Source: Clostridia bacterium
GTDB taxonomy: Bacteria; Bacillota; Clostridia; DSM-8532; SZUA-474
NCBI GenBank assembly: GCA_003251775.1
Contig: QKEK01000308.1
Coordinates: 1-37,293, forward strand
Direction: 5' to 3'
Length of the DNA stretch: 37,293 nt
Shown one piece after another: positions 15,914 through 35,349 of this stretch. Position 1 is the first letter of the stretch. Each line of letters starts with the position of its first letter. Both the position numbers and the translations under genes were made by a program. The notes beneath the pieces are model-generated. The model saw nothing but the letters and a program-made list of their open reading frames with translations, was not told the DNA's origin and made no database searches.

Positions 15914-15993
15914 TATAATAAAACTTCCATGTAGTAGCTATTTTCAAGCATTTTTAGTTGTTACATATTTATACATAATTACACACAATAGGG

Positions 15994-16025
15994 GCACTGT
16001 TTTTGTATTTTACTCAAAACAGTGC
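15994..16025. terminator. Hairpin after dprA, possible terminator
   Basis: GCACTGTTTT (15994-16003) and AAAACAGTGC (16016-16025) form a perfect 10-bp stem. No U tract follows on the plus strand, so efficient intrinsic termination is uncertain. Confidence 0.5.
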
Positions 16026-16078
16026 ATAATAGCGTATAAATATACTAGAACGCAATCTCCTCATTTTTAAAAAAAATA

Positions 16079-19817: not shown

Positions 19818-21695
19818 CTATACATAAGGTGTGTGTGTCATTTCAGAGGATTCTGTAGCTGGTGTAGGACTAGGCTCAGGTGTCGATGATGGAGTAGGAA
19901 CGTCTGTAGGACTAGGCTCAGGTGTTAAGGTAGGCGTAGGAGCAGGAATATCTGTAGGCATAGGCTCAGGTGTTATGGTAGGTGTAGGAATATCTGTAGG
20001 ACTAGCCTCAGGAGTTATGGTAGGCGTAGGAGCAGGAATATCTGTAGGTGTAGGCGTAGGTGCTAGTAACGGATTATGCTTAATCAGCTTATTATGTGGA
20101 TTATATACGCTAGTATAGAGCTTTTCATATGAGATAACCCTTCCGTTAACCGTAACCTGCTTATAAGTATCAATTTTATATCCCTTTGAACCATTTTCTA
20201 CAATTATCTCAGAACCAGGTGCTAGAGTAGGGTCTACTTCATATTCTGTTCCAATTTCATAAGTATCAATAGTTTTATTAATTATACTTACCTTTACATC
20301 GTCCTGTGACTTTGTTCCATATACCTTATATATCACCTTATTGTTTTTTACTTGACCTTCAATTTTTATTGGAAAGTCAGTGTTATTTTTAAACTTAAAG
20401 TCTACAGTACCATATGATACAGTAGCATCCTGTCCAAAAGGAACATATCCTACAGTAAATTGATGATTTAGTCGTTCTGTGATTTGTAGATTAGAGTAAA
20501 GAACTGCATTATACAGGGTTGTTGACGTCTGGCATAAGCCACCGCCTATTCCTTGTATTACCTTGCCGGCATAATAAACATTTGCTGTTTGATATCCTCT
20601 TTCAGCAGTTCTTGGACCAACAACCTTATTAAAGGAAAATTCATCGCCTGGTAGTAGAATAAGTCCATTTATACTCTCAGTTGAAAGCTTAATATTGATG
20701 CTTCTATTATAATTATTCTGTGTTTCAGTACTAAATGAAGTCTGGTAGGTATATAAAATATCTTTGAATAGGCTTTCCTTCAGTAGCTCAGTAGTTTTAT
20801 CTGGAAGAGTTGTTTTTATAGGAACGGTTATTGTAGCTATTTTTTCCTGATTATCTGATAAGCTCATAAGCTTTGAAACTGAGCTTGAAATATCATCAAT
20901 AGTGACAACCCTTCCTACAACGTGTGGAATTATTTCTATTTGATTGTCAATAAGAGTGTATTGTGCATTTTTGTATTCCTTATTCAGCATTGCTATTTTA
21001 CTATCGTATATTTTTTCAGGGTCTATAGCTGCTGAATTAGTTCTCTTAATAGATATTTCTATAACCCCATCACTATTAATATCATTTATTTCTTCAGATA
21101 TTAGATTAAGTAATTCTTCTTTGTTAAACTCATATCCATGCTGTCCTGAAGAAATAATAATCTGATTGTCATTAATTTCTGCTTGAGGGTGAATAGCTGG
21201 TTGACAGTGCTTTTTATATAGTGATTCTATAATAGTATTTGCTTTTTCTTTATCTATTGAAGGAGTATATATATAATCAAAACCCGAAAAAAAAGCAGCC
21301 AACACCTTGGAGGTTCTTGCAAAAGGGTTTTCATTTCTTCCAAGAGAGTAGATTTGATTAGTCAGTAGTAGTGGGTCAATTTTATCAGTAATATCTGGGT
21401 ACTTATAGGTTTCAGTTACTCCATTAACCATAATAGAAACCTCACGATTTTCTATCTGTGGTATAAAAGTATTTATTATATAATCTTCTATTTGTATTGT
21501 TGAATAACCGCTTATATCATAACCGTTAAGAGATATACCTCGATATACCTTGTCATATGTAAATAGCATAATAGCTAGGTATGAACAAACAATGGAAATT
21601 ACAAGCAGAACAACTATTAAAACTACAATTAATTTGCTTTTTTTCTTTTGATTACTAGGTTCGTTATCAATCTGAACCTCAATGTTGGAAGACAT
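19818..21695 (-). CDS. VanW-family cell-wall protein with Pro/Thr-rich C-terminal repeats
   Basis: A 625-residue protein anchored by one N-terminal membrane helix (about residues 20-45 after a lysine-rich stretch), with the rest outside. Two peptidoglycan-binding-4-type segments (about residues 60-290) precede the VanW domain ([22 protein letters not shown]...[20 protein letters not shown]). A beta-rich stretch like a G5 domain follows, and the last 80 residues are Pro/Thr/Glu/Ser-rich imperfect repeats ([20 protein letters not shown] types). The tail would be flexible and wall-spanning. ATG 21695 has GGAGG 8 bases upstream; an earlier in-frame ATG at 21716 lacks a site. VanW proteins are named for a vancomycin cluster but most have no resistance role. 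The structured repeats at 21717-21937 lie immediately upstream of this gene. Confidence 0.9.
19838..20065 (-). repeat. Imperfect tandem repeat coding for the Pro/Thr-rich tail
   Basis: On the plus strand, units of about 50 to 60 bases built from GTAGGAGCAGGAATATCTGT- and GGCTCAGGTGTTATGGTAGG-like blocks recur four to five times with small changes. The units keep frame (multiples of three). Such DNA is prone to slippage, so the tail length likely varies between strains. Confidence 0.7.
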
Positions 21696-21716: not shown

Positions 21717-21816
21717 AACATTTTGTGCACATAATATCCAAAGACATTTTGTCTTGGAGATTTTTAAAACTTAAATGATTTTTTATCAAATCTGAAGTTT
21801 TAAAAACGCTTACATA
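21717..21816. repeat. Structured intergenic repeat, copy A (degenerate)
   Basis: It shares the order of parts with copies B and C: a TTTTGTGCAC-like edge, a small hairpin (AGAC ATTTT GTCT), long arms TTTTTAAAACTT / AAGTTTTAAAAA, and CGCTTACATAT at the end. About 15 bases, including the left outer-stem half, are missing. The arms differ from copy B at four positions, and every change is matched on the other arm. It begins about 24 bases upstream of the vanW-like start. Confidence 0.75.
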
Positions 21817-21827
21817 TTAACTCCGCC

Positions 21828-21937
21828 ATGCATTTGGCACAAATAACGCCTGTAAGCGGTCTTCAAGACATTTCGTCTTGGCGATTTAACGAACTTCATT
21901 AGAATTTCTATCAAATTTGAAGTTCGTTAAACGCTTA
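21828..21937. repeat. Structured intergenic repeat, copy B
   Basis: The outer stem is TAAGCG (21853-21858) with CGCTTA (21932-21937). It encloses hairpin 1 (CAAGAC-ATTTC-GTCTTG, 21864-21880) and hairpin 2, a perfect 14-bp stem TTTAACGAACTTCA/TGAAGTTCGTTAAA (21885-21898 with 21918-21931). The whole folds as a three-way junction. It is tandem with copy A and about 80% identical by eye to copy C at 33516. Confidence 0.8.
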
Positions 21938-21983
21938 GAAGGGGTATAGGAAAACCCCTAAGCCCCTCTTAAAACACATTCTA

Positions 21984-28566: not shown

Positions 28567-28779
28567 AAATATACGCAAATAATACTTTTATCCAATATAG
28601 TCTTGTTTAAACGTGTATAACGTAAAAAGCTTAGTAAAATATGGTATTGAAATATTTGTTGTTTTTTGATAGTATTAAAGAAAAGATACAAAAAAAGCTG
28701 GTATTTTGTATTATTAATAAATATGTAACAACGCAAAAAGCTTATATTAGCATTTTGATTTATAAGCAGGAGGTATGAA

Positions 28780-33481: not shown

Positions 33482-33515
33482 AATCATAGCCCCTTAATCC
33501 GCATATTACTCATCT

Positions 33516-33629
33516 ATGCATTTTGCACAAATAACGCCTGTAAGCGGTCCCCAAGACATTTCATCTTGGCGATTTAACAAGCTTCATTTAAATTTTTGTT
33601 AAATTTGAAGTTCATTAACGCTTACATAT
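33516..33629. repeat. Structured intergenic repeat, copy C
   Basis: Same plan as copy B at 21828: outer stem GTAAGCG (33540-33546) with CGCTTAC (33619-33625), hairpin 1 CCAAGA/TCTTGG, and hairpin 2 TTTAACAAGCTTCA with TGAAGTTCATTAA. In hairpin 2 one A-U became G-U and two central pairs are lost, so copy C is slightly decayed there. It is oriented as copies A and B and lies just upstream of proB on the minus strand. Confidence 0.8.
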
Positions 33630-33639
33630 AAAATAAAAT

Positions 33640-35205: not shown

Positions 35206-35332
35206 GATATGAAAAACTAGTGAAAAGCTTTTAGAGTATATTTCGATGTTGTATATTTATACGTTATTTAGCGTTGTTTTGGATAAATATACATGAAAAT
35301 TTCACTTATTGAGTGTGATTTTGCAAAAATGT

Positions 35333-35349
35333 AACAACACAAAAAGCTT
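35333..35349 (+). repeat. Short intergenic motif AACAACACAAAAAGCTT
   Basis: The same 17-base pattern (AACAAYRCAAAAAGCTT) occurs at 27215-27231 (before rimM), 28727-28743 (before the S41 protease gene) and here, directly upstream of the yceD -35 box. A shorter relative (AACGTAAAAAGCTT) is at 28619-28632. All are on the plus strand in gaps. Confidence 0.5.

Follow-up and report, generated by a model that had tools for sequence, protein, structure and literature searches.

The window, by which we mean the whole 37,293-nt stretch of DNA analysed, carries three copies of a structured repeat, all on the minus strand (Table 1), as the initial annotation had proposed. Copies A and B lie between a cheW-like and a vanW-like gene, and copy C lies in front of proB. 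The plan put forward for all three, with an outer stem GTAAGCG/CGCTTAC (P1), a small CAAGAC hairpin (CCAAGAC here), and a long hairpin, was found again in each of its parts, except that copy A lacks the element's 3' portion. As described, exactly four positions distinguish the long-hairpin arms of A from those of B, and within each copy the two arms pair perfectly. Compared with dinucleotide shuffles, the fold is strongest in B (z = -5.1) and C (z = -4.6) and weaker in A (z = -2.3). Because the left flank of copy B is without the target heptamer described below (CCCCTT runs directly into CTAAGCG), we read its left junction as altered.

Copy A had been placed 24 bases upstream of a start codon; the distance is more likely ~43 nt, with the probable start of the vanW-like gene at 21695 and that gene's own GGAGG just 5' of it. 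proB has an AAGGGG of its own, and the stop codon of the six-codon frame opened by copy C (MRIKGL) overlaps its start (ATGA), which makes this frame a possible candidate for weak coupling to proB. All three window copies fall outside the class of start-codon copies treated below, and they are no evidence that wall and proline genes are regulated together. Database matches to the VanW-like protein come mostly from Clostridia relatives, at 30–60% identity; its C-terminal Pro/Thr-rich repeat region is encoded by 42/48-nt direct repeats (window 19863–20065).

Table 1. Repeat copies in the window and their features; the element reads on the minus strand
Feature	Position	Strand	Description	Basis
Copy C	33503..33625	-	Full-length; right end GATGAG-TAATATG just 5' of proB	Sequence; CM match 33503-33628, 125 bits
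Target heptamer before copy C	33626..33632	-	Minus-strand TTTATAT, consensus TTAATAT	Sequence; motif from 58 copies
Copy B	21814..21938	-	Full-length	Sequence; CM match 21814-21941, 144 bits
Copy A	~21738..21813	-	3'-truncated, profile positions ~2-79; head-to-tail with B, no spacer	
TTAATAT at B/A junction	21814..21820	-	Serves B as right end and A as target	
P1 5' arm GTAAGCG, copy C	33619..33625	-	Outer stem	
P1 3' arm CGCTTAC, copy C	33540..33546	-	Outer stem	
Six-codon ORF ATG CGG ATT AAG GGG CTA TGA (MRIKGL)	33487..33505	-	Opens at ATG of copy C right end	

The scale of the family is far larger than three: the window copies are 3 of the ~110–130 copies and fragments in the genome. The element is ~125 bp long and has no coding capacity, and near-identical copies, ~110 in all, are dispersed over the genome. 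A blastn search of the element against its own 3.42 Mb draft genome gave 56 matches, pattern searches found 93 left ends (pattern control 1) and, at up to three mismatches, 83 right ends (pattern control 0), and a profile search retrieved 130 copies and fragments. When the surroundings of the ends were fetched, ~53 left ends proved to be joined to a right end in one unit at the same strictness, leaving ~40 left and 21 right ends unpaired, several of which belong to full but diverged copies. Truncated copies abound in both polarities, and of the 111 arrays, 18 contain two or more copies in seamless head-to-tail tandem. The element was not found in 60 relatives, in 391 genomes of the class, or in viral contigs, phages, and plasmids, which, as the searched set included no further member of its family, says only that it is confined to a narrow lineage.

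Read from the left, the consensus begins after a flanking TTAATAT and runs GTAAGCG, long hairpin, TCG, the small hairpin CCAAGAC GAAAT GTCTTGG, AAAC, CGCTTAC, AGGCG, TTATTTGTGC NNNA NGCATGG, NGGAG, and a terminal TTAATAT; the two ends of the element are GTAAGCG and GTTAATAT. It folds as a three-way junction in which P1 closes around the long hairpin (12–14 bp) and the small hairpin; beyond the junction lie a third, short hairpin and a tail resembling a ribosome-binding site (RBS), GGGGGAG-TTAATAT. Terminal inverted repeats are absent: the outer stem pairs the left end with an internal position, and the last ~40 nt lie outside it. Over 42 distinct copies this structure is 90.6% paired, compared with 27–42% for slid versions, and the consensus fold is no less distinct with DNA parameters (z = -7.7) than with RNA parameters (z = -5.9). 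Cells changed on both sides of a pair number 75, against 24.4 +/- 6.3 in shuffles, although they count few evolutionary events because the arm types are inherited. Among the long hairpins four main arm types can be told apart, TTTAACGAACTT, TTAATCAAGCTT, TTTTTAAAACTT, and TTAAAAAAGCTT, and all of them are perfectly paired. C6 and C245, whose near-identical flanks mark them as one locus in two versions, differ in long-hairpin type, which suggests exchange of modules by gene conversion rather than stepwise compensation. At L052:380-766 and L162:3830-4218, two contigs agree in their flanks but carry tandem copies of different long-hairpin types; the assembly may contain versions from two strains here, or the locus may be duplicated, and gene conversion seems to have taken place.

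In 58 copies, a sample that leaves out obvious tandem junctions, the left flank is TTAATAT at -7 to -1 (74–95% per base), with no signal beyond -8. The right end of the element is the same heptamer, and head-to-tail stacking takes place exactly there, since a right end that regenerates TTAATAT allows copies to stack. Because the heptamer stands on both sides and is itself the right end of the element, a short target duplication (a few bases) would look the same as none. Empty sites are supplied by a second repeat family, R2, of ~100 nt, which contains ATAAATATGTAACAACGC and into which the element inserts between ATAAATATG and TAACAACG. In at least five elements (L036, L037, L042, L047, and L053) the right end is immediately followed by the right-hand part of R2, TAACAAYG...AAAGCTT; two of these, L042 and L053, also have the R2 left half before their left end, and many R2 copies are uninterrupted at this point.

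The right end can also form the beginning of a translation start. When the next base is G it reads GGNGGAG-TTAAT-ATG, and at gene starts it takes the form GGGGGAG-N5-ATG. In 18 of 89 right ends an ATG at this spacing, or up to two bases off it, opens a frame of 107–609 codons, and the diverged copies L212 and L055 likewise open a long frame, giving 20 in total; the remaining right-end frames are short (at most 53 codons). Pfam matches were obtained for 17 of the 20 proteins and share no common theme: they include an amino-acid kinase (ArgB-like), a glycosyltransferase, GNAT, AraC, and TetR proteins, a histidine kinase, an HD response regulator, a solute-binding protein, NUDIX and MazG-like proteins, and a cell-wall hydrolase, among others, and a nucleotidyltransferase in the set begins MYSVILAGGFGTRL. 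Some 20 copies appear now to act as the translation start of ordinary genes that are unrelated to one another.

These copies differ from the rest in two ways. Their RBS is stronger: the duplex energy averages -8.6 kcal/mol, compared with -5.5 at other non-tandem right ends (P = 3e-7), and a strong RBS motif is present at 16 of 18 start-codon right ends against 10 of 53 others (P = 2e-7), which we take as signs of selection on the RBS. In addition, their left flank tends to hold an RBS-like sequence and an ATG (-6.2 vs -1.9, P = 1e-4), as in AAAGGAGGTTAGTATG at L172 and AGGGGAGTGAGTATG at L212, so that a former RBS-ATG apparently stands beside them, the old start now usually reading ATG-TAA. 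Insertions at start codons account for 25%, against the 13% of intergenic AATATG sites that open frames of at least 100 codons, an excess that is only about twofold (P = 0.026) and therefore needs no active targeting of start codons; sequence targeting together with survival explains it.

We consider it very likely that the element is a non-autonomous, MITE- or REP-like mobile repeat of ~125 bp that has been partly domesticated as a translation-initiation region. The initial annotation had offered a REP/MITE-like repeat as its second choice, and this choice is borne out by the high copy number in one genome only, the sharp TTAATAT target, the recurrent insertion in another repeat, the truncations, the tandems, and the occurrence in every orientation. 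Mixed orientation and placement between convergent genes had been named as marks of a mobile repeat, and both are seen: of 79 arrays flanked by genes on both sides, 46 sit between co-directional genes in the sense orientation, 16 are antisense, 11 are divergent, and 6 are convergent. A copy would insert immediately 3' of TTAATAT, and its own right end would restore TTAATAT for the next copy. The fold would serve mobilisation as single-stranded DNA, and an IS200/IS605-type (HUH) or other hairpin-recognising enzyme may act in trans. Single-strand transposition of the IS200/IS605 type yields elements that contain hairpins, follow a fixed 5' target, have a right end that matches it, and are without terminal inverted repeats. 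In the simplest history, a copy inserted at an old start codon would leave that start reading ATG-TAA while the element tail took over initiation; the carried RBS would make such insertions tolerable, and these copies would persist and be kept by selection.

A more ambitious reading, which we regard as unlikely though worth stating, makes the element a specialist for start codons. TTAATAT, often followed by G, would then fit an RBS-spaced ATG, the RBS-ATG carried by the element would keep the gene translated, and the old start, turned into ATG-TAA before a folded leader, would bring unrelated genes under a common translational control (e.g. through 30S access or ribosome reinitiation).

That the element is a dedicated cis-acting leader RNA, a riboswitch or attenuator controlling a set of genes, was the first proposal of the initial annotation, and we now hold it to be improbable. 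The strong fold, the compensated stem, a 46:16 bias towards the sense of the downstream gene, and the ~20 copies that form a gene start region all speak for it. However, the genes that follow have unrelated functions, with no common theme; antisense, divergent, convergent, and truncated copies are numerous; and once the 18 start-codon copies are set aside the bias falls to 28:16, which is not significant (P = 0.10). If the RNA were kept copy by copy, broken pairs should favour G.U, but A.C breaks are as common: G.U and A.C number 21 and 19 in P1, and 30 and 40 in the long hairpin, the short 3' hairpin being an exception with three U.G or G.U pairs in its consensus. On this evidence the copies, taken one by one, do not have the look of RNAs under selection, and we infer that the fold is needed for spreading, not for the life of each copy. 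A leader RNA is also at odds with the lack of any counterpart in the 60 relatives, the 391 class genomes, and Rfam. The earlier failure to match a known riboswitch was repeated here: Rfam gave no match to a known RNA family at gathering thresholds, and permissive searching returned chance-level matches only. What stands of the leader proposal is its weaker sense, in that ~20 copies end a gene's leader and provide its RBS and start codon.

Target-primed reverse transcription is a further route, and a rather implausible one. Here the 3' UUAAUAU of a transcript would anneal to nicked TTAATAT, and early termination would leave 5'-truncated copies; the identity of right end and target, the ~20 right ends without a left end (the break mostly falls between positions 52 and 85), and the presence of a group II-type reverse transcriptase agree with this. 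Yet 3'-truncated copies are at least as common (~30–40 solo left ends), so that truncation is not polar, and neither of the two reverse transcriptase loci carries a copy of the element. It is very improbable that the repeat as a whole serves functions of the chromosome or of mRNA ends (RNase III sites, terminators, supercoiling) and that the start-codon copies are by-products of this. The hairpins are stable and numerous intergenic copies lie in every orientation, but RBS strength at the start-codon copies points to use at 5' ends and the copies elsewhere are heavily truncated and decayed.

Candidate mobilising enzymes, Y1 transposases and reverse transcriptases, were sought in the same genome. 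It encodes a RAYT-like tyrosine transposase (C302:13303-14082; L157:4304-5083, 259 aa) and has decayed Y1 transposase genes on C244 and C186. No element copy was found around the RAYT-like gene, and none of the Y1 loci has the element at its ends or shows a parent. RAYT, an IS200-like transposase, and reverse transcriptase were accordingly each rejected as a linked mobiliser, the genes being present but none flanked by the element. An R2-like 3' fragment lies a few hundred bases 5' of the RAYT-like gene. At L223, an unpaired left end and an unpaired right end, both diverged, enclose ~600 nt, a candidate by eye for a long parent.

Several known systems resemble the element in part. REP/GTAG repeats have subfamilies with alternative complementary stem residues and form tandem clusters (PMC3733652). 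They and the BIMEs, linked to RAYT and IS200/IS605-like enzymes, share with the element an intergenic location, high copy number, hairpins, subfamilies, and tandem clusters, and a RAYT-like gene is present in the genome. REP units are, however, 20–40-nt palindromes with GTAG, whereas the element is ~125 nt, starts with GTAAG, and forms a three-way junction plus an extra hairpin; moreover, a RAYT gene is flanked by its repeat, while here the RAYT-like gene is unflanked and the right end is an RBS and start codon. Palindrome-associated or non-autonomous derivatives of IS200/IS605 have subterminal hairpins, insert 3' of a short fixed target, and have a target-like right end and no clear duplication. 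The element shares these traits, but no intact parent with the same ends was found at the Y1 loci of the genome. BOX and RUP of Streptococcus pneumoniae are structured repeats of ~100 bp with more than 100 mostly intergenic copies in the 5' and 3' regions of operons, and boxC can hold the start codon of an ORF (PMC3049150, PMC2229807). The likeness thus extends to size, copy number, structure, and a possible start codon, but BOX/RUP have paired terminal inverted repeats, whereas the 3' third of the element lies outside the outer stem, its site is TTAATAT, and its RBS-ATG sits precisely at the end. Rickettsia palindromic elements are small mobile repeats whose insertions in genes are tolerated through their coding properties (PMC10969869); they add an in-frame peptide inside ORFs, whereas the element re-supplies a translation start in front of them. 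The same review of MITEs makes no mention of start codons or ribosome-binding sites, and we found no described family in the open-access literature that combines such an architecture with a terminal RBS-ATG.

Short bacterial repeats are usually regarded either as neutral or as a supply of promoters, terminators, and RNase sites; the tail of this element is a ready-made translation start. The ~20 apparently refitted genes offer a natural set of insertions in which to study how mobile DNA persists at a gene's few most sensitive bases, and the start-codon copies also bear on the evolutionary replacement of start sites and leaders.

Some further observations concern R2 and the other repeats. R2, a recurrent host for the element, has the pattern TGTATATTTATACGCTATTTTGCGTTGTTTTGAATAAATAT...TTGCATAAATATGTAACAACGCAAAAAGCTT, is often 5'-truncated, and gave 40 profile matches in 635 kb of fetched sequence; it occurs in the window at 15947–16045, 28683–28743, and 35251–35348, and elsewhere at L034:6244-6343 and L058:4194-4293. 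Mosaics at L203:620-760 and L213:2005-2150, in which the left half of the element (long hairpin) is fused to R2, suggest recombination between the repeat families. At L176, L212, and L041 the right-end tail departs from the consensus and matches the left flank instead (at L176, for example, GAGATAATATG stands on either side), which looks like copying from the target or conversion. Short repeats seem unusually abundant in this genome. A third family, of ~100–170 nt, is present in many loci (L215:1868-2038, L055:4370-4575, L162:2137-2352, and L173:7383-7550), and a fourth repeat, of ~160 nt, is up to 97% identical between loci (L206:1-161, L170:5701-5861, and L187:3915-4075).
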